From: Hyphococcus flavus
GTDB taxonomy: Bacteria > Pseudomonadota > Alphaproteobacteria > Caulobacterales > Parvularculaceae
DNA: 64,000 nt
Direction: 5' to 3'
Assembly: GCF_028748065.1 (NCBI RefSeq)
Contig: NZ_CP118166.1
Span: 1,441,501-1,505,500, forward strand
This document shows positions 29,889 through 38,316 of the stretch, piece by piece. The stretch's first letter is position 1, and the number at the start of each line of letters is the position of its first letter. Both the position numbers and the translations under genes were made by a program. The notes under the pieces are model-generated. The model had not been told where the DNA came from. It saw nothing but the letters and a program-made list of their open reading frames with translations, and made no database searches.

Positions 29889-30347
29889 GTGGGCCTCAGC
29901 TTCCTGTCCGGGTCCAAAAACTTGCGGCTGGCGGCGATGGTTATCGTCGCCCATTGGACTTTGGCGAATGTCCTTTATTATTTTTTCAAGAACGGCGCCG
30001 TTAATTACATAGCGCCTTTCATCATTATTTTTCTGGCGCTTTTTTATACATTCTCGAAATCCAAGACTCTGAATGGCGCATTCATCCACAGGGTTTTTTT
30101 CGGATATTACTCTTTATACTTCTTGATAAATCTCTGGCACCTGCTGGGGCGGTTTCTATTTCCAGAAACACTTCTGGCGAATTACTGGTTTTCGCTTGCC
30201 GCATCCAACATTGTTTTCATCTTGATCGTGTTGACCATGTGGGGTTTAGCGATTCTGAAATTCCTGGACAATCACTCCGATGGCGGGTTGATGGGCGTAT
30301 ACAAGCGCAACATTCATCACTGGCGAAAATGGTTCGGCGGCAAATGA
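29889..30347 (+). CDS. Polytopic membrane protein of unknown function
   Basis: This 152-residue protein has four likely membrane helices (about 13-30, 36-52, 62-80 and 98-122) and a basic C-terminus ending NIHHWRKWFGGK. The frame is open upstream back into the previous gene, with further hydrophobic residues (IRFGAFLFIGVGLSFL). The true start may therefore lie before the GTG at 29889; no ATG or good Shine-Dalgarno is available. It may be translated by coupling to the preceding gene. No family is recognised. Confidence 0.6.
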   Translation: MGLSFLSGSKNLRLAAMVIVAHWTLANVLYYFFKNGAVNYIAPFIIIFLALFYTFSKSKTLNGAFIHRVFFGYYSLYFLINLWHLLGRFLFPETLLANYWFSLAASNIVFILIVLTMWGLAILKFLDNHSDGGLMGVYKRNIHHWRKWFGGK

Positions 30348-30425
30348 AACGGAAAATATCTACCGACAACGCCATTAATCATTTGGAATTGGCGTTCAAG
30401 AAATTAGATATTTCATGAGGCGGGT

Positions 30426-30926
30426 ATGGGCATTCGATTAATAGTAACGTGTAGTCTGGCGTTCGGGGCTCTGATTTACAGTGACGCAGTTGCTGCGCCT
30501 TTTCTGGTCAAGCGCATAAAAACCGTGCGTGATTACATACACACGCGTTGCATGGTGAATTACTTGATCAATCCCGGAGAGCTCACCCAGGATGGCGATA
30601 GGCGGGTTATAACAATTCAGAACGTTGAGACACCCGGTCAGGATACGGAAACCACAGACCCCGAACAGATCGTTGATGAAATCTACCGTTTTAATTATCG
30701 AAGTGGCGACAGTGCTTATGGTGTTGAGCTTGTGATTTATAGAGCAAGAAAAAGCGACTTTGTCGTGAGCCGCAGCTTCAATGAGGAACCATCCGCGGAC
30801 CAGTTTTTTGACGCTGTAGAGGTCATGCGGGCCATAGCCGATCGGGCAGAAGCAAGGTGTGATATAAGCCTTGGCCGGGGCGCCGTCGTGACATGCGAAG
30901 GGTTTTCCTGCCCTGTAGATTACTAA
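30426..30926 (+). CDS. Secreted protein of unknown function
   Basis: This 166-residue protein has a Sec signal peptide (about 1-23, ending VAA). The mature part is acidic, with four cysteines: one near residue 42 and three clustered near the C-terminus (EARCDISL, VVTCEGFSCPVDY). It has no transmembrane helix beyond the signal. ATG follows GAGGCGGGT closely. It stands 78 bp after the membrane protein gene in the same direction. The family is unknown to me. Confidence 0.7.
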   Translation: MGIRLIVTCSLAFGALIYSDAVAAPFLVKRIKTVRDYIHTRCMVNYLINPGELTQDGDRRVITIQNVETPGQDTETTDPEQIVDEIYRFNYRSGDSAYGVELVIYRARKSDFVVSRSFNEEPSADQFFDAVEVMRAIADRAEARCDISLGRGAVVTCEGFSCPVDY

Positions 30927-30970
30927 GCTTTTTTTTGAGTGCGGCGGCGCTTGCTTTTCAGTGGTAATGC

Positions 30971-32125
30971 CTACCGGTAACGAAGCATGTCTCGATCGAG
31001 GTCGGTGATTTTCCTGACGCCCATCAGTTTCATGTCGCGTTCGATTTCGGCGCGCAAAAGCCTGAGCGCGTGTTCAACGCCGGGCTGGCCGGCGGCGGCG
31101 AGCGCATAAAGATACATGCGCCCGCCGGAACATGCTTTAGCACCGGCAGCGAGCGCCTTCAAAACATGGCTGCCGCGCCGGACCCCGCCGTCGAGAATAA
31201 TATCGAGCCTGTCGCCGACAGCGTCGGCGATCTCCGCGATCTGGTCGAAGGGTGAGCGGCTTCCGTCGAGTTGCCGTCCGCCATGGTTTGAAACCATGAT
31301 GGCGTCGCATCCCATCTCGGCGGCGCGGCGCGCATCCTCAACGCTCATGACGCCCTTAAGGCAGAACTTGCCGCCCCATTGGGCTTTCAGTTCCGCGGCG
31401 GCGTCCCAGTCCATGGTTTGATCGAGCAGTGTTGAGAAGTAATCGCCGATCGACATCGCCTTGTTGGACCCTTCAGCCACATAATCCACCAACTCGGCGA
31501 GGGCGAATTTTTCATGTGTGAGGAAGTTCATGGTCCATGCGGGGTGGGCGGCGAAGCTTAAAAGGCTTGCGGGCGTCAGCTTCGGCGGCGTCGTGAATCC
31601 CGTACGCTGGTCGCGTTCGCGGTTTCCGCCGACAATCGTATCGACGGTCAACGCCAGCACGTCGAATCTCGCGGCTTTCGCCCGCTCCAAAAGATGGGCG
31701 TTCAGCGCCTTGTCCTTAAAATAATAGAACTGGAACATTTTCGGCGTGCTGATCATCTTGCTGATCTCGGCAAGGCGAACGGAGGTCAGGGATGAGACGC
31801 CGAAAAGCGTGCCGAATTTTTCCGCCGCCCGCCCCACGGCGCGCTCGCCGTCATGATGGAAAAGCCGTTGCAGCGCCGTCGGCGAACAAAACAGTGGCAT
31901 GGCGAGTTTCTTACCGAAAACCTCGACCGACAAATCGATGTTTTCGACGCTGGCGAGGACATTCGGCACCAGATCGCACGTCTCAAAGCTTTCCGTATTG
32001 CGCCGGTAGGTCGTCTCATCCTCCGCCGCGCCGTCAATATAGTGAAAGATCGGCGCCGGGAGCCGCCTCTTCGCGAGTGTTCGCAAGTCATCGATATTCA
32101 GGCAGGACTTAAGGGAAGAGGTCAT
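30971..32125 (-). CDS. lldD: FMN-dependent L-lactate/alpha-hydroxy-acid dehydrogenase
   Basis: This 384-residue protein is of the FMN-dependent alpha-hydroxy-acid oxidoreductase family. The active-site block SNHGGRQLDGSRSP (near 270) has the catalytic His and substrate Arg. IFHYIDGAAEDE (near 27) and LTVDTIVGGNRERD (near 160) are further family marks, and ILDGGVRRGSHVLKALAAGA binds the FMN phosphate. LldD-type enzymes oxidise L-lactate to pyruvate at the membrane and feed the quinone pool; mandelate or glycolate are alternatives. ATG at 32125 was chosen over the TTG just before it. It lies 43 bp downstream of the RHH-LOV gene in the same direction, so the two probably share a transcript. Confidence 0.88.
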   Translation of the reverse strand: MTSSLKSCLNIDDLRTLAKRRLPAPIFHYIDGAAEDETTYRRNTESFETCDLVPNVLASVENIDLSVEVFGKKLAMPLFCSPTALQRLFHHDGERAVGRAAEKFGTLFGVSSLTSVRLAEISKMISTPKMFQFYYFKDKALNAHLLERAKAARFDVLALTVDTIVGGNRERDQRTGFTTPPKLTPASLLSFAAHPAWTMNFLTHEKFALAELVDYVAEGSNKAMSIGDYFSTLLDQTMDWDAAAELKAQWGGKFCLKGVMSVEDARRAAEMGCDAIMVSNHGGRQLDGSRSPFDQIAEIADAVGDRLDIILDGGVRRGSHVLKALAAGAKACSGGRMYLYALAAAGQPGVEHALRLLRAEIERDMKLMGVRKITDLDRDMLRYR

Positions 32126-32168
32126 CAATGTATTCGCGATACGTTTTTCGCAGATCCTACTGTAATTT

Positions 32169-32720
32169 TCAGTCGATCTTAAACTGTCGTCCGATAAAAA
32201 ACAGAAGCTCGGCGGTGTCGGGATTTACAACAGGTTCGATATGCAACTGAAACCGGATTGGGGTTCCGTCCTTGTGGTAATTAAGTATTTGCGTATCAAC
32301 AATGCGTTCGTCGTTTAAATTGTTACGGATATCACTTACGGTGGACCTATCCGTTTCGGCGCCTTGAAGAAACCTGCAGTTCCGGCCGATTACCTCTTTT
32401 TCCGTGTATCCCGTCGTTTTGTAAAAACCGGGCGAGGCGTAAAGAATTGGATTGTCATACATATGTGGATTGGTGATGACAAAGCATTCATTGGTCGCGC
32501 GCGTTAGGGCGCTCGCGAGCACGCCTATATTTTTAGTAGATTGGACGATGCTCGTATCAACTTCGGGTGAATCGACACTCATGCCCCGGCCGATAAGTTC
32601 GCGTATCGCGGCAGCGCGACTGGGCAATCTGTGCTTGAACCGCCAATCGTCGATTGCCTCCATTTCTTCGTCGTTGACGATGACATTTAGTTTGGACTCG
32701 CGCGTTTTTGCTGGCGTCAC
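32169..32720 (-). CDS. RHH-LOV protein: blue-light sensor fused to ribbon-helix-helix DNA-binding domain
   Basis: This 183-residue protein has two domains. Residues about 8-47 are ribbon-helix-helix-like (LNVIVNDEEMEAIDDWRF, then LPSRAAAIRELIGRGM), the fold of small DNA-binding proteins such as Arc and CopG. Residues about 62-183 form a LOV-type PAS domain with the flavin motif GRNCRFLQ: Cys115 is the expected photo-adduct cysteine, with Asn114 and Gln119 beside it. ILNYHKDGTP keeps the first flavin-contacting Asn (147). The second Asn, usual in plant phototropins, is Phe157 here, as bacterial LOVs often vary. Gln179 matches the signalling glutamine. Together this predicts a light-controlled dimeric DNA-binding regulator, probably of its own operon with lldD. 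That function is inference. Confidence 0.87.
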   Translation of the reverse strand: MTPAKTRESKLNVIVNDEEMEAIDDWRFKHRLPSRAAAIRELIGRGMSVDSPEVDTSIVQSTKNIGVLASALTRATNECFVITNPHMYDNPILYASPGFYKTTGYTEKEVIGRNCRFLQGAETDRSTVSDIRNNLNDERIVDTQILNYHKDGTPIRFQLHIEPVVNPDTAELLFFIGRQFKID

Positions 32721-33064
32721 GATCTCAGGGGCCTTTCTTGGATGAGTATTTGGGTGATACTTTATCTAGCCATCATGCGGAAGATGCGCCGGTATAAATC
32801 CCTTTCGCTTGCCATCTGCATGCCCAGCCTCTATATGCCCCTCGAATTTCGGGAAAATTGATCTTTCCCGTCTCTGCCTGAACGACCCCCAGCAGATACA
32901 TGGGACGGGTCAGGGGAGCGCCGCCGCCGGAGTAATGCTCTCGCGGCGGTTAGTCGTGTTTTGCGCGCCTTCGCGCGCGGGAGGGGTAATTCCCTCATGG
33001 CGGTATTTGGCGTTTGGCGGTTTTTATGGCTGTCAGGCAAGGTTTCGAGACCGAAAGGGCATCG
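32721..33064. other. Divergent intergenic region with three consecutive hairpins
   Basis: These 344 bp separate the RHH-LOV gene from the ffh leader ORF and hold no convincing gene. Three hairpins stand in a row: CCGCCGC/GCGGCGG (32921-32927 with 32943-32949, with an inner GAG/CTC), GCGCGC-CTTC-GCGCGC (32963-32978) and GAGGG/CCCTC (32981-32995). They could lie in the ffh leader transcript. I looked for the 4.5S SRP RNA core and did not find it. Confidence 0.6.
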
Positions 33065-33184
33065 ATGTTTGAAAGCTTAAGCGACCGGCTTGGGAGTATT
33101 TTTGAGAGCCTGCGTGCCCCGAGCGCGAATGCGCTCAGTTTATTATTTTGCCGCGAAGGCGTTGACGCCGAAACGATTGGATGA
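33026..33184 (+). CDS. ffh leader ORF whose product mimics the Ffh N-terminus
   Basis: This 39-codon ORF begins at ATG 33065 (AAAGGG five bases upstream) or at ATG 33026 (13 more codons, poor Shine-Dalgarno). From 33065 the product starts MFESLSDRLGSIFESLR, matching the Ffh start MFESLSDRLSSIFEGLR at 15 of 17 residues. The DNA matches at only 33 of 51 bases, and 10 of the 15 shared residues use different codons, including Ser AGC against TCG. This argues for selection on the peptide, not recent duplication. The remaining 22 residues do not resemble Ffh. The stop TGA (33182-33184) is in frame with ffh and three bases from its ATG, so ffh is probably translated by coupling. Such a mimic leader is new to me. 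Confidence 0.7.
   Translation: MAVRQGFETERASMFESLSDRLGSIFESLRAPSANALSLLFCREGVDAETIG
33121..33150 (+). promoter_or_regulatory. Attenuator-like hairpin inside the ffh leader ORF
   Basis: GAGCGC-GAAT-GCGCTC (33121-33136) is a perfect 6-bp stem followed by AGTTTATTATTTTG, which resembles an intrinsic terminator with an interrupted T tract. It lies within codons 19-24 and beyond of the leader ORF, so ribosomes translating the leader would melt it. A second small stem (GGCG-TTGA-CGCC, 33158-33169) precedes the ffh start. Confidence 0.5.
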
Positions 33185-33187
33185 CGC

Positions 33188-34711
33188 ATGTTCGAATCGC
33201 TGAGCGATAGATTAAGCAGTATTTTCGAAGGCCTTCGCGGCAGGGGCGCGCTCGAGGAGAAAGATGTCACTGAGGCCCTGCGCGAGGTGCGCGTGGCCCT
33301 GCTTGAGGCTGACGTCGCCCTGCCGGTCGCCAAGGATTTCATTTCCAAAGTCAAGGAACGCGCCGTTGGCGCCGAGGTCCTGCGCTCGGTGACGCCCGGC
33401 CAGCAGGTCGTCAAAATTGTCCATGACGCCCTCGTCGATATGCTCGGCGGGGATGCGGATCCGTCGCTTTCATTCGCCACAACGCCGCCGGCCGCGATCA
33501 TGATGGTGGGCCTGCAAGGGTCGGGTAAGACAACCTCAACAGCGAAGATCGCCCTGCGCTTGCAAAAGCGTGACAAGAAACGCGTCCTTATGGCGTCGCT
33601 CGACACGCGCCGTCCGGCAGCGCAGGAGCAACTCGCCATCCTCGGCGAACAAGCGGAGGTAAAAACCCTTCCGATCATCGCTGGTCAGACCCCGCGCGAT
33701 ATCGCCAAGCGCGCCATGGAGGCGGGCAAGCTCGGCGGCTTCGACGTCGTCATGCTCGACACGGCGGGGCGCCTTTCCATCGATGAACAGTTGATGGCCG
33801 AAGTCGCCGATATTCATAAAACTACCAACCCTGTCGAAACGCTGCTGGTTGTTGATGCGCTCACCGGTCAGGACGCTGTGACGACGGCGGAGAAATTTAA
33901 AGAACGCCTCAATATCACCGGGGTCGTCATGACCCGGATCGATGGCGATGCCCGCGGCGGCGCCGCGCTTTCCATGCGCGCGGTCACCGGCGCGCCGATC
34001 AAGTTTGTCGGCGTCGGTGAAAAGATCGATGCGCTCGACACCTTCGAGCCTGAACGCATGGCCGGCCGTATTCTCGGCATGGGCGACATCGTCAGTCTTG
34101 TCGAAAAAGCTTCTCAGGAAATGGACGAGGCCAAGGCCAAGAAAGCCGCGAAGAAAATGGCCAAGGGCGAGTTCGACATGGACGATCTCGCCGACCAGTT
34201 CAAACAGATGCGCAAGATGGGCGGCATGGGCGCGATCCTCGGTCTCATGCCTGGCATGGGCAAGATGAAAAAGATGGTCGATCAGGCCGGCGGCCTCGAC
34301 GACAAGGAAATTATTCATCAGGAAGCGATCATCTCGTCCATGACGAAACAGGAGCGCAAAAAGCCCGCGCTCATGAACGCCAAACGCAAAAAGCGCGTCG
34401 CCGCCGGTTCCGGCACGTCGGTGCAGGAGGTCAACAAGCTTCTGAAAGCCCACCGCCAGATGGCCGATATGATGAAAAAGATGGGCAAGGGCGGCATGAA
34501 AGGCATGGCCAAACAACTGGGTATGATGGGCGGTATGCCGGGTGGTGGCGCACCGGACCCCGCGATGCTTGAAGCCGCCAAAGCAAGCAAGAAGGATAAA
34601 GGCGGTCAGGGTACGGAAGACCTGGATTTTGACGCCATCGAAAAAGCGCTGTCCGGTCAGGCGCCGATGCCGCCGGGATTGGGAATGCCGGGCATGGGGA
34701 AAAAGAAATGA
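33188..34711 (+). CDS. ffh: Signal recognition particle protein Ffh (SRP54)
   Basis: Ffh is the GTPase of the bacterial SRP; it binds 4.5S RNA and hydrophobic nascent chains and docks with FtsY at the membrane. In 507 residues it shows the N domain (LREVRVALLEADVALPVAKDF), the GTPase P-loop GLQGSGKTT (near 107), DTRRPAAQEQL, DTAGRL (near 190), TRIDGDARGGAAL (near 248), and a Met-rich M domain (about 330-480: MKKMGKGGMKGMAKQLGMMGGMPGGG pieces) that forms the signal-sequence groove. There is no clear Shine-Dalgarno; its ATG follows the leader-ORF stop by three bases, which implies coupled translation. It overlaps the next gene by four bases (ATGA). Confidence 0.97.
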   Translation: MFESLSDRLSSIFEGLRGRGALEEKDVTEALREVRVALLEADVALPVAKDFISKVKERAVGAEVLRSVTPGQQVVKIVHDALVDMLGGDADPSLSFATTPPAAIMMVGLQGSGKTTSTAKIALRLQKRDKKRVLMASLDTRRPAAQEQLAILGEQAEVKTLPIIAGQTPRDIAKRAMEAGKLGGFDVVMLDTAGRLSIDEQLMAEVADIHKTTNPVETLLVVDALTGQDAVTTAEKFKERLNITGVVMTRIDGDARGGAALSMRAVTGAPIKFVGVGEKIDALDTFEPERMAGRILGMGDIVSLVEKASQEMDEAKAKKAAKKMAKGEFDMDDLADQFKQMRKMGGMGAILGLMPGMGKMKKMVDQAGGLDDKEIIHQEAIISSMTKQERKKPALMNAKRKKRVAAGSGTSVQEVNKLLKAHRQMADMMKKMGKGGMKGMAKQLGMMGGMPGGGAPDPAMLEAAKASKKDKGGQGTEDLDFDAIEKALSGQAPMPPGLGMPGMGKKK

Positions 34712-35121
34712 CGCAATCCGAAGAGTTGCATTGGAAAGGCTTATCCGAGCTTGTCGATAGTTCTTTAAAGTCGCGCGTTATTGCGCTTGCTGACAAACCG
34801 AAGAGTCGGCCAAAGCTCGTAGAAATGTTCCATCATAAAATTTTCTTTGAGCCATCATTTGTTCGTGAAATCGGAAAGAAAGGAACCGAGAAGCAAACGC
34901 TCAATCTCCTGAAACATCTCGGCGCTCCGAGTGAAGCGCTAATGTTAAACAATTCCAATAATTGCGCCGGCGAGTGGAGGTTATTGGAAGACGCTGTGTC
35001 AGGATGTTTTGGATGGTGCGGCGGGCAAATCGTATCGTGCATCGCGGGCCAGCTCCTGTTTCATGAATCCGACGAACCGGAAATGCGCTCGGTAATTTTT
35101 AAACCTCAAAAAACAATCTGA
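34708..35121 (+). CDS. Unknown protein encoded between ffh and rpsP
   Basis: I do not recognise this 137-residue protein. It starts MTQSEELHWKGLSEL, has a basic helical middle (SFVREIGKKGTEKQTLNLLKHL) and ends with a cysteine-containing segment (SGCFGWCGGQIVSCIAG). It overlaps ffh by four bases (ATGA) and ends 21 bp before rpsP, so it is translated within the SRP/ribosomal operon. In most alphaproteobacteria I know, nothing or chorismate mutase-like genes lie here. Its base composition looks more AT-rich than ffh and rpsP, hinting at later acquisition. Confidence 0.75.
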   Translation: MTQSEELHWKGLSELVDSSLKSRVIALADKPKSRPKLVEMFHHKIFFEPSFVREIGKKGTEKQTLNLLKHLGAPSEALMLNNSNNCAGEWRLLEDAVSGCFGWCGGQIVSCIAGQLLFHESDEPEMRSVIFKPQKTI

Positions 35122-35142
35122 GAAAGAAGGAAAGAAACCAAC

Positions 35143-35571
35143 ATGTCGTTGAAAATCAGACTGGCCCGGGGCGGGGCGAAAAAACGTCCGTTCTATTCGA
35201 TTGTCGTTGCTGACTCGCGCTCTCCGCGCGACGGCCGCTTTATCGAAAAGATTGGCACCTACAACCCGCTACTCGGCAAAACCGATGAAAATCGCGTTCA
35301 GTATGACGCCGAACGCGCCAAGCATTGGCTCGACAAAGGCGCCAAGCCGTCGGATCGCGTTGCGCGCTTCCTGTCGGCGCAAGGCCTTGTAAAATGGGAA
35401 CACGGCAACAACCCAAACAAAGCGAAGCCGGGCCAGAAGGCGCAGGAACGCGAACAGGAAAAGAAAGACAAGGAAGAAGCCGCCAAGGCCGCAGCCGCTG
35501 AAGCCGCCGCCGCACCGGCCGAGGAGGCCCCAGCCGAAGAGCCTGCTGCGGAAGAAGCAAAAGCTGAATAA
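35143..35571 (+). CDS. rpsP: 30S ribosomal protein S16
   Basis: S16 is a primary 30S assembly protein. The first 85 residues are canonical: [40 protein letters not shown] and [20 protein letters not shown] tail of about 55 residues follows, first Lys/Glu-rich and then Ala/Glu/Pro-rich, giving 142 residues against about 82 in E. coli; extended S16 tails are common in alphaproteobacteria. GAAGGAAAG precedes the ATG. The gene follows the unknown ORF downstream of ffh. rimM, trmD and rplS, which usually come next, are at 53.6-55.7 kb on the other strand. Confidence 0.97.
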
Positions 35572-35622
35572 TCGGGCCTTTCAGGCAGTTAATCTTTCGT
35601 CGGGAACCCTTACGCTCCTGCA

Positions 35623-35691
35623 TTGTTTGCCCGTCATACCGTTTTTTGACGCGCCCGGACGCGCGGCGTTATGCGCGCGGCGGGCAAACAA
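35623..35691. repeat. Long-range inverted repeat before the small lipoprotein gene
   Basis: TTGTTTGCCCG (35623-35633) and CGGGCAAACAA (35681-35691) are perfect 11-bp complements enclosing 47 bp that include GC-rich inner repeats (GCGCG runs). The right arm ends just before AGGAGC, the ribosome-binding site of the lipoprotein gene. The structure may be a leader fold that controls translation or the end of the rpsP transcript. Confidence 0.6.
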
Positions 35692-35703
35692 AGGAGCTAA
35701 GCG

Positions 35704-35898
35704 ATGAAACTTATCGCAACATTTGCCGCTTTGACGTTGATGAGTACGTCTTTATCAGGCTGCCTTTTAGGTGCGGCGGCGGGCGCTGGCGCGATTGGCT
35801 ATGATGAAGCGACAGAAGGCGACGGCGAATTCGATCCGCTTGAGGAAGCCTACGACGGAGATCCGGACACGAAAGGTCCGCTCGACGACGATGATTAA
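35704..35898 (+). CDS. Small acidic lipoprotein
   Basis: This 64-residue protein has a lipoprotein signal with lipobox LSGC (Cys20). The mature part is a Gly/Ala stretch (LLGAAAGAGAIGYDEA) and then a strongly acidic C-terminus rich in Asp and Glu (ending GPLDDDD). AGGAGC stands seven bases before the ATG. It stands alone between the rpsP operon and a strong terminator. Family unknown; small acidic lipoproteins of this kind occur in related alphaproteobacteria. Confidence 0.8.
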   Translation: MKLIATFAALTLMSTSLSGCLLGAAAGAGAIGYDEATEGDGEFDPLEEAYDGDPDTKGPLDDDD

Positions 35899-35929
35899 TC
35901 AATAGCCGGATTATTTCGGCAACAACTAA

Positions 35930-35988
35930 AGAGAACGGCCCTGAAGGTTAGCGTCATACGCAGCATCCCTTCAGGGCCGTCTCTTTTT
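35930..35988 (+). terminator. Strong intrinsic terminator
   Basis: CGGCCCTGAAGG (35936-35947) pairs perfectly with CCTTCAGGGCCG (35968-35979). The flanking GAGA/TCTC extends the stem with one bulge, and TCTCTTTTTG follows. It ends the small-lipoprotein (and possibly rpsP) transcript. Confidence 0.9.
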
Positions 35989-35989
35989 G

Positions 35990-36030
35990 AAAAGCGTAAC
36001 TGGCTTGGGCGACTTATCAGTTACGCTTTT
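35990..36030. terminator. Second hairpin, tandem to the terminator
   Basis: AAAAGCGTAACTG (35990-36002) and CAGTTACGCTTTT (36018-36030) form a perfect 13-bp stem with A/T ends, so it can terminate transcription on both strands. On the minus strand it would serve the 36156-36566 gene. Confidence 0.8.
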
Positions 36031-36155
36031 CTCCCCCAGCTCTCCCAACCAAAACTCAAACTATTGGGGCTTTCTTGGAACTCTCCTCCGGGCGATGCGC
36101 GTCGCGTGGCTTGCGCTTCCGCGCGGCGCGTCGCCGAGAGGAGAGAACCCCGGGA

Positions 36156-36566
36156 TTAATAGCCCTCATTATCAAAGGCGATCATAACCGGTGGCATTGG
36201 CAAGCGCGGCTGGAACGGGTCTTCGATGTTCGCAACCTTCTTCGAAACTTCGAATTCAGCTTTCTCAAGCGCTGCGAATTCGACATTCATCTTCGTGTTC
36301 TCGGCTGTAGCCGCGAAGTCGTAAGATGAAGGTTCAGTCAGGGGCGCGAAAACATTTTCGATTTTCGCCATGCGGGACTGAACGTTTGCGTCGGCCTGAT
36401 TAACAACAGCCAGGGTAAAGTTCTGGTTGCGTGCATCGAGATCGGCATTGATTTTTTGCATCAGGGAAGCGCTGTCGAATTGAGCTTCCTGGGCCTGGGC
36501 GCCGTTGTGCATGGTTGCTGCTGCGGCGAATGCCAAAACGCTGGCGTAAAAGGTTCGGTTCGTCAT
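36156..36566 (-). CDS. Secreted protein of unknown function
   Basis: This 136-residue exported protein has a signal peptide (about 1-25, ending AQA). Its mature part is mostly helical (MQKINADLDARNQNFTLAV, NVEFAALEKAEFEVSKKVA), with a proline-rich end (EDPFQPRLPMPPVMIA). There are no cysteines. AGGAGAGA is the ribosome-binding site before the ATG at 36566. It is a single gene divergent from the alanine symporter. I do not recognise the family. Confidence 0.75.
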   Translation of the reverse strand: MTNRTFYASVLAFAAAATMHNGAQAQEAQFDSASLMQKINADLDARNQNFTLAVVNQADANVQSRMAKIENVFAPLTEPSSYDFAATAENTKMNVEFAALEKAEFEVSKKVANIEDPFQPRLPMPPVMIAFDNEGY

Positions 36567-36882
36567 TTTCTCTCTCCTCTGGTGGGTCAGAACGTTTCGT
36601 CGTCCTGATGTTGTTAACCATAACGAGATCTGAAAAATCCGATGTGATGGGCGTCACAGCTTTGTTTCAGTTCACAAAATTGCCGTTTTTGAGACCAAAT
36701 TCGCCGTAATTTGAATAAGCTGGCGGGCCCGGTCCGTTTTGGTCCCGATGTTTTCGTGCTGTCAGGCCAATGATTTCAAAGAGATGCGACGAATGACCTT
36801 GCTACGCATGCCCGGCCCCGCCTAAGCTTTGGCGAATTTTTTAAACAGCGCCGGCAAGGCGCGAGTAGGGGTTCTTACTGAA
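36567..36882. other. Divergent intergenic region
   Basis: This 316-bp region holds the promoters of the secreted-protein gene (minus) and the alanine symporter (plus). I see nothing else in it: no hairpin of note and no plausible gene. Confidence 0.6.
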
Positions 36883-38316
36883 ATGGAAGTTTTTTACGGG
36901 TTCATCGACAACCTCAGCAACTTTATCTGGGGCGGTTATTGGGGGCTAAATCCGGACGGGACGGAGAATAAGATTCTTCCGCTCGCGCCGATGGTGTTCA
37001 TTCTGTTGGGCAGCGGCCTCTTTTTCATGATCCGGTTAAAAGCGCTTCCGTTGCGCCGATTGGGGCCGGCGTTCGTCAATCTTTTTACCGGCAGCCGCAA
37101 ATCCAGCACTGATCCGAACGCAAGCGGCGAAATCACGCCGTGGAATGCGTTGTCGACGGCGCTGTCCGGCCAGGTCGGCACTGGCAATCTCGCCGGTGTG
37201 GCGACCGCAATCACGCTTGGCGGGCCCGGCGCTATCTTCTGGATGTGGGTGACGGCGTTGTTCGGCATGGCGCTCGCCTTTTCCGAATCAAGTCTTGCAG
37301 TGAAATATCGTGAAGAACATCCGGATGGTCATATTCATGGCGGCCCGATGTTTTACATCAAGAACGGTCTGCCGCCCTTCTGGCGATGGCTGGCTGTATT
37401 CTTTGCTATCGGTACGATTTTCTCCGCCATCGTTACCGGCAACATGACGCAATCGAATTCGATTGCGACGGCGCTGGCGTCGGAAACGCCGATACCGCAA
37501 TGGGTTTCGGGGCTTGTGATTGCCGGGCTTGCTTTTGTCGTCATTATCGGCGGCATCAAGTCTATCGGCTCCGTTGCGGGCAAGGTCGTGCCGGCTATGG
37601 CGGGCGGATACATCCTCATCGCCATCATCATGCTGATCATGAATATTGAGCATGTGGGCGACAGCTTCCTGATGATTTTCCAGTATGCGTTCGGCCTTGA
37701 GCAGGCTGCTGGCGGTCTTGTCGGTTACTCCGTATTGCAGGCGATCCGTTTCGGCGTGGACCGTGGATTGTTCTCAAATGAAGCGGGCCAGGGGTCGACG
37801 CCAATTGCTCACGCCGCCGCGAAAACGGATGATCCTGTGCGTCAGGGTGAAATCGCCATGCTTGGCACCTTCATCGACACGATCGTTATCTGCACCATGA
37901 CGGCGCTCGTTATTTTGTCAGTTCAGGGGCAATTCGCCGCTGAGAATGGTTTCGTCGAGTATGCATGGCAGGGAACGCTGCAAGGCGCGGAAGTGACAAC
38001 CGCTGTCTTCAGTCAGGGTATACCATATGGCGGCCTCTTCATTGCCATCGCGCTGGCGGTGTTCGCTTTCACCACTATTCTGGGCTGGTCTTACTATATC
38101 GAGCAGGCGGTGACCTATCTCGTTGGCGACTGGGCGGCGAAGCCTATGCGTTATGTATGGGTGGTGATGGTGTTCATCGGCGCGCTTCAGGAAATCGACT
38201 TTATCTGGAAACTTGGCGGCATCGCCAACGCCTCCATGGCGCTGCCGAACCTGATCGCCATTTTGCTGTTGAGCGGCGTTGTCATCGCCATGGCGAAAGA
38301 GAAGGGCCGGCTTTAG
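36883..38316 (+). CDS. Sodium:alanine symporter (AGCS family)
   Basis: This 477-residue inner-membrane carrier is of the alanine/glycine:cation symporter family, importing alanine or glycine with Na+. Family marks are WGGYWGL.. near the start, GQVGTGNLAGVATAI (near 105), GGPMFYIKNGL, and DRGLFSNEAGQGSTPIAHAAA (near 300). About eleven membrane helices are expected. ATG at 36883 gives MEVFYGFIDNLSNFIWG, the normal family start; an earlier in-frame TTG adds an unrelated 18 residues. A GC-rich hairpin follows the gene (38341-38374). Confidence 0.95.
   Translation: MEVFYGFIDNLSNFIWGGYWGLNPDGTENKILPLAPMVFILLGSGLFFMIRLKALPLRRLGPAFVNLFTGSRKSSTDPNASGEITPWNALSTALSGQVGTGNLAGVATAITLGGPGAIFWMWVTALFGMALAFSESSLAVKYREEHPDGHIHGGPMFYIKNGLPPFWRWLAVFFAIGTIFSAIVTGNMTQSNSIATALASETPIPQWVSGLVIAGLAFVVIIGGIKSIGSVAGKVVPAMAGGYILIAIIMLIMNIEHVGDSFLMIFQYAFGLEQAAGGLVGYSVLQAIRFGVDRGLFSNEAGQGSTPIAHAAAKTDDPVRQGEIAMLGTFIDTIVICTMTALVILSVQGQFAAENGFVEYAWQGTLQGAEVTTAVFSQGIPYGGLFIAIALAVFAFTTILGWSYYIEQAVTYLVGDWAAKPMRYVWVVMVFIGALQEIDFIWKLGGIANASMALPNLIAILLLSGVVIAMAKEKGRL

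Follow-up and report, generated by a model that had tools for sequence, protein, structure and literature searches.

A REP-based insertion unit as the probable origin of a leader ORF resembling the start of ffh in Hyphococcus flavus

The ffh gene of Hyphococcus flavus is preceded by a short open reading frame whose peptide, MFESLSDRLGSIFESLRAPSANALSLLFCREGVDAETIG followed by the stop, repeats the N-terminus of Ffh itself, which raises the question of how a gene comes to be led by a likeness of its own start. The region analysed, here called the window, is a stretch of 64,000 nt (positions 1441501-1505500) of the 3.47-Mb, single-contig genome, labelled G000; other G-numbers denote the genomes compared with it, and L-numbers denote fetched loci. 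The original prediction had described a 39-codon leader sharing the frame of ffh (ATG 33188), and this description was confirmed: 15 of its first 17 residues are identical to Ffh residues 1-17, 33 of 51 bases match and 18 differ, and the codons show ten synonymous and two non-synonymous differences. The window contains the tandem ffh-start pattern once, whereas 0 of 100 dinucleotide shuffles contain it, and a search of G000 for further ffh fragments matched the leader and ffh alone. The ffh-like leader is real, not a product of chance, and is more general than first claimed. Its most convincing explanation, held here with good confidence, is that insertion of a unit based on a REP-like palindrome duplicated and restored the ffh start, leaving the displaced original start as a leader that most likely acts as a coupling ORF. 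The features of the locus are listed in Table 1.

Table 1. Features of ffh and its upstream region, in window coordinates
Feature	Position	Strand	Basis
Conserved promoter-like pair upstream of ffh, CTTGCC - 17 nt - CTATAT	32808..32836	+	By eye on alignment; weak
5' region conserved upstream of ffh, probably structured	32844..32952	+	Alignment and RNAalifold
Inverted REP copy CCCGCGCGCGAAGGCGCGC	32963..32981	-	G000:C1:1474463-1474481
GAAAGGG, ribosome-binding site before leader ATG	33053..33059	+	Box comparison with G003, G008 and G017
Leader ORF of 39 codons ending in TGA, 3 nt ahead of ffh ATG	33065..33184	+	ORF reading
Left (ancestral) copy of ffh start, codons 1-17	33065..33117	+	Copy alignment and upstream match of relatives
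REP-like palindrome CCCGAGCGCGAATGCGCTC	33118..33136	+	Member of genus-wide family
AT-rich linker, REP to inverted segment	33137..33148	+	Unit comparison
Inverted segment ('guide') TGCCGCGAAGGCGTT	33149..33163	+	Reverse complement of 33228-33242 (ffh codons 14-19), across insertion junction
Spacer, probably diverged copy of ribosome-binding region	33164..33187	+	Inference from reading of sequence
Right copy of ffh start, now functional N-terminus	33188..33240	+	Copy alignment; insertion junction 33240^33241
ffh (SRP54), 507 aa	33188..34711	+	Pfam SRP54, SRP54_N, SRP_SPB

The ffh start was read in 30 of 60 genomes, comprising 24 of the 28 genomes of the genus (G000 included), five others of the family and one of the order. 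Upstream copies of the ffh start are present in four of the 24 genus genomes, with one copy in G000, two tandem copies of 127-nt period in G020, one copy and another shortened to MFDSLS in G010, and one decayed copy, MVESLSDRFGPIDEN, in G002; the other 20 have no leader. A scan of 62 genomes of the family, blind to decayed leaders such as that of G002, which it missed, found no more ffh-adjacent leaders; six of these genomes yielded no match of any kind. A global search for the tandem-start pattern, which may omit the window's own genome and excludes both the decayed leader of G002 and start distances above about 138 nt, returned only the records of G010 and G020. The original prediction was to fall if related genomes proved to have no such ORF, and the outcome is mixed: relatives do carry it, but few of them do. 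Carriers are scattered on the Ffh tree, where G027, the sister of G000, has no leader. The idea that the leaders form one orthologous family was rejected, as over 51 nt those of different genomes are not mutually closest and their carriers are scattered on the tree.

Comparison with relatives that have no leader (G003, G008 and G017) involved the box CGAGACCGAAAGG, which lies directly before ffh in these genomes, beginning 19 nt before its ATG, and which precedes the leader in G000. Similarly, the upstream region of G003 ffh agrees at 32 of 40 positions with the 40 nt that precede the leader in G000, versus 14 of 40 with those that precede the G000 ffh ATG. Because both the box and the 40-nt match belong to the leader, it is the leader that stands at the old ffh start. 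The native box of G000 and G010 stands before the first copy only, and plain tandem duplication of the ffh start together with its upstream region was rejected on this ground.

The palindrome beside the left copy belongs to a REP-like family present in most of the genus, the stems of which vary yet stay self-complementary and the members of which often form inverted pairs about 12 nt apart. CCCCGAGCGCGAANGCGCTC with at most two mismatches was found in 22 of the 28 genus genomes, including 39 places in G020, and G000 has four exact foot-and-core copies (the inverted copy upstream of ffh, those in the ffh and era units, and one elsewhere). BIME-like inverted pairs with a short spacer are many, for example in G020, the ffh unit itself not being such a pair. 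The REP foot is CCCG, with no GTAG or CGTC tag at the end. The Y1 transposase family (PF01797, E 0.001), a member of which could act on REPs, was matched in nine of the 28 genus genomes, in seven of them (including G020) over the cut-off, and the same search gave no match in G000. Two other arrangements of these repeats were observed: in loci L130, L137, L138 and L139, REPs in one to three copies, spaced 27 nt apart and in frame by eye, occupy the start of a possible small ORF (ATGTCAAACAGCCCGAGCGCGAAGGCGCTC...) and encode PSAKAL repeats, and in G020 (L159, L160, L162, L163, L166 and L167) REP pairs are nested in a second palindrome-like repeat with flanks such as GTCATCCCGGATGC and GCATCCGGGATGAC.

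The anatomy seen at ffh, which consists of a left gene-end copy abutted by the REP foot, the REP, a linker, an inverted junction segment about 31 nt from the foot and a right copy, recurs at other genes. At era it is present in 7 of 27 readable genus loci, among them that of G000, as a start copy, REP, inverted GCGTTGGG-like segment, second start and era, the gene in G000 being confirmed by Pfam MMR_HSR1 and KH_2. The start-copy peptides are RCAVIAVIGAP in G000 and CAMI-, CIMV- and ISAP-type variants elsewhere, and when 299 genomes of the order were queried with an era leader, leader-type matches with E below 1e-5 came from six genus genomes only, with diverged leaders such as that of G021 (E 0.635) escaping it. 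Units at tRNA-Ser are present in three genomes, at the 3' ends of tRNA-Ser(tga) in G020 and G022 and in the 5' region of tRNA-Ser(cga) in G001. Four further protein genes carry the unit, named from a reading of their translations: a gene of G022 with the twin-arginine (Tat-signal) start MLKRRQLLTGG, for which an 82-aa fragment had no Pfam match, and genes resembling cysteine desulfurase in G001, purK in G004 and nagZ in G010. In each case the unit forms a direct repeat of the gene end and the gene is intact. Unit lengths are 95-143 nt, with longer ones only at era in G026; the units have no recombinase or endonuclease of their own, because this length is too short to code for one. In the G026 era locus (L200/L300), the REP pair in the leader has been multiplied in two 45-nt steps, each a whole number of codons, and the resulting 63-codon leader still ends at the era start.

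Repeats of the flank beside REPs were counted with two criteria. Those scoring at least 36 occur at 14 of 184 REP places versus 1 of 335 control places; a pair of REP tandems, a repetitive region and a repeat that lies 33 nt away from the foot are among the 14. With the looser criterion (score 24), a flank repeat of 22-72 nt, sought in a window of about 73 nt and with its end no more than 6 nt from the foot, was found at 23 of 214 distinct REP places, which are those in the fetched loci and not every REP of every genome. As 8 of 138 shifted control anchors pass too, this criterion is weak when used alone; the REP tandems L204 and L217 still count among the 23, as do L145, which is repetitive, and the weak cases L173 and L348. 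An exact inverted match of at least 7 nt to the unit's own junction is present at 17 of these 23 places versus 30 of 504 swapped-junction pairs, and 13 of the 17 begin 28-32 nt from the REP foot; several units are of common ancestry, and these counts are not of independent events. Outside the coding-unit set, flank repeats near REPs were found at L350, L347, L322, L141 and L136, the last of which may be the end of hisG on our own reading of the sequence. The flank repeats of L141, L322 and L347 contain GCTTCTGTTGC, and these loci hold a permuted tmRNA gene.

The inverted segments match each target, tRNA genes included, and partly follow the synonymous variants of each genome, and were therefore probably made from the target rather than borne by the element. 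At ffh in G000 the arms are 93% complementary, with 12 nt exact, and the segment lies 31 nt from the REP foot. The right copy also seems to derive from the target, because the right copy at tRNA-Ser in G001 is identical at 69 of 73 positions and includes noncoding upstream DNA, and because AGTATTTT is common to both G000 ffh copies at codons 11-13. Some units are recent and duplicate their own flank, noncoding DNA included, as at this tRNA-Ser; the nagZ-like unit of G010 is also recent. The transition to the present ffh locus would have involved insertion of a REP-based unit of about 123 bp after codon 17-18, with the original ribosome-binding site and first 17 codons staying upstream as the leader ORF and a second copy of the start region restoring ffh. 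As a guess at the underlying steps, a REP copy may have been joined to the left flank, target-templated fold-back synthesis (template switching) could have yielded the inverted segment of the junction, and a jump back of about 70 nt could have allowed the gene end to be re-copied as the right copy.

The mean distance to the ffh starts of relatives is smaller for the leader than for the present ffh start both in G000 (0.318 vs 0.37) and in G010 (0.295 vs 0.372), and the G002 leader is nearest to the ffh start of G012, from which it differs at 13 of 51 positions. The G000 and G002 values agree with horizontal replacement, by which an ffh start from a related species would have arrived downstream of the resident one, the synonymous differences predating the event. 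This is very unlikely given that one repeat family, with an inverted segment at a near-fixed distance, stands at unrelated genes and tRNAs, that recent units copy their own flank, and that the two G000 copies have the codon 11-13 sequence in common; furthermore, at era in G006 and G021 the right copies are no less similar to their own close relatives than the left copies are. The generalisation that the left copy is always the native one was rejected, the right copy being more native at era in these two genomes.

The original prediction had argued that neutral decay of a duplicate would not keep the peptide while changing silent sites. Most differences between left and right copies are indeed synonymous, a pattern not predicted by duplication and subsequent neutral decay of the leader: 14 left/right pairs show 27 non-synonymous codon differences, versus 62 expected for a neutral left copy with an identical start and 38 with a left omega of 0.2 (right omega 0.1 in both cases). 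Some constraint on the leader coding sequence is therefore possible if the copies were identical at birth, and this pattern is the best remaining support for the selection argument. The synonymous excess means either that the leader is constrained, or that right copies took most of the changes, or that copies exchanged sequence, or that some already differed at birth. The further step, that selection has shaped the peptide to imitate the N-domain helix of Ffh and that it adjusts SRP levels by acting on SRP RNA, Ffh or FtsY, agrees with the 15 of 17 residues kept despite ten synonymous codon changes and with rejection of a neutral left copy under identical beginnings, but is extremely unlikely, and an action on SRP or FtsY is unsupported. 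The same unit stands at era, tRNA-Ser and four other genes, with peptide copying at the protein genes, and the mimicry is therefore attributed to insertion and gene-end duplication rather than to an SRP-acting peptide; moreover, the leader has decayed in G002, one copy is cut short in G010 and 20 of 24 genus genomes have none. The likeness between leader and Ffh most likely reflects common descent from one gene start, and a peptide function specific to SRP is not needed to account for the leader.

The insertion origin leaves a role for the leader in translation, as the original prediction had also proposed. By script, all 13 units at ffh (six) and era (seven) have an open leader ORF with a stop -8 to +5 nt from the next ATG, and four more stops were placed by hand (twin-arginine gene +4, cysteine-desulfurase-like +5, purK-like +1, nagZ-like -2), so that in all coding units read, 17 of 17 leaders are open and stop within 8 nt of the new start. 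The era leader-to-start distances (95, 98, 98, 104, 122, 122 and 188) are all 2 mod 3 and differ by whole codons. When the insert is shuffled with its length kept, such a stop arises by chance in 5-77% per unit, and no single unit is therefore compelling, the argument being the run of 17 and the frame shared at era. In G002 the stop/start overlap (+5) is kept in a leader whose peptide has decayed. The adjacency of stop and start in 17 of 17 units thus indicates translational coupling, and the constant feature across units is most likely coupling rather than the peptide.

The ffh leader is accordingly read as probably translated and coupled to ffh, which upholds that part of the original prediction as probable. 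In translating the leader, palindrome and inverted segment included, ribosomes loaded at the old site would open a stem closed around the ffh AUG, and would then stop 3 nt before this AUG and reinitiate on ffh. The proposal that read-through of the TGA gives an extended Ffh found no support, since in five of the six ffh units leader and next start are in different frames. The statement that ffh has no Shine-Dalgarno sequence of its own is arguable, as TTGGA lies 6 nt before its ATG, beside the leader stop.

In the predicted RNA fold, the inverted segment closes the stem around the ffh AUG, with a fold z of -4.35 for 33116-33250 and -3.06 for a slightly different stretch. This fold would suit a regulatory RNA switch in which the inverted segment has two alternative pairing partners, the end of the leader and ffh codons 14-19, and leader translation gates the ffh start according to a signal, and so would the ranks of the own junction at ffh, which among 24 are 1 in G000 (tied with G011), 1 in G020 and 3 in G010, where one G-U pair is possible. 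Such a switch is unlikely: the segment is also present at tRNA-Ser, where translation plays no part, its distribution in the genus is patchy, its rank falls to 9 of 24 in the decayed G002 unit, and no signal is known. At era the own-junction ranks among 27 are 2, 17, 1, 2, 3, 7 and 7, weak in three of the seven genomes, and the fold z values of the G020 ffh unit (-1.39) and the G004 era unit (0.0) do not stand out, while one leaderless control reaches -2.07. Because it is present in tRNA-Ser units without translation, the inverted segment is first of all an insertion product.

Integrative elements are known to enter tRNA genes or 5' gene ends, as do ICEs at prfC. The present units resemble them in the direct repeat of the gene end and the restored gene, and differ in having no room for a recombinase or cargo and in containing a REP and an inverted junction segment instead. 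At atp6 of Allomyces, a mobile element with a replacement gene end was reportedly described by Paquin in 1994. According to PMC3630166, the mORFs of Glomus mitochondria are likewise mobile elements that bring a foreign gene end. In both systems, as here, insertion into a gene is accompanied by a second gene-end copy that restores it, and the displaced fragment remains; theirs involve a homing endonuclease gene and foreign C-termini, whereas the present units, of about 95-143 bp, have no endonuclease gene and occupy 5' ends of protein genes or either end of tRNA genes. IS110/IS1111 elements with their seekRNA (PMC11187229) also hold target-matching sequence, whereas the present units have no transposase and a segment that differs for each target.

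The closest likeness is to REP, BIME and REPIN sequences and their RAYTs, which, according to PMC2817692, PMC3116915 and PMC3733652, are dispersed palindromes of about 20 nt, often in inverted pairs about 12 nt apart. Those sources describe REPs that lie within genes, in part at the N-terminal end, and REP dimers enclosed by palindromes (PMC3733652), as well as REPIN excision (PMC3116915); RAYTs are relatives of the IS200/IS605 family, whose known members produce no larger duplications of the target (PMC2817692). Compared with what is given there, the present family has a CCCG foot instead of GTAG or CGTC, its units carry target copies of 25-80 nt and an inverted junction segment, and G000 has no Y1_Tnp match. 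A literature search, most subscription journals lying outside its scope, gave no description of such units among the matches listed. With moderate confidence, we propose that tiny mobile repeats of Hyphococcus/Marinicaulis-type bacteria enter gene ends, those of core genes such as ffh, era and tRNA-Ser included, repair the target in the same act through a target-templated copy and a complementary segment at a near-fixed distance from the hairpin, and make the displaced start a coupled leader, an insertion mechanism that would be undescribed for REPs. REP movement is poorly known, and units with readable left and right boundaries and one anatomy at several genes in several genomes place a strong constraint on its mechanism. 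They also show one way in which core genes tolerate insertions, and that a gene-mimicking leader ORF can arise without selection for mimicry is a warning for annotators of leader peptides.

Further upstream, the alignment and RNAalifold prediction covered 26 of 30 regions from the genus and family, one of them doubtful, the other four not having been located by the script. The stretch 32808-32952 is possibly an uncharacterised ffh leader RNA; Rfam gave no match at E up to 1 in window positions 30000-37000, and a sigma-70 scan of 32000-35500 found no site. In at least 12 of 24 genus genomes (L004, L006, L008, L009, L010, L012, L014, L015, L017, L019, L022 and L023), a small gene that we read as cupin-like lies between the conserved 5' region and ffh and ends at or beside the ffh ATG; it is absent in G000. 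On the opposite strand of the window, positions 32169-32720 hold a 183-aa ORF with the motif NCRFLQG, which we take to recall LOV photosensor domains.
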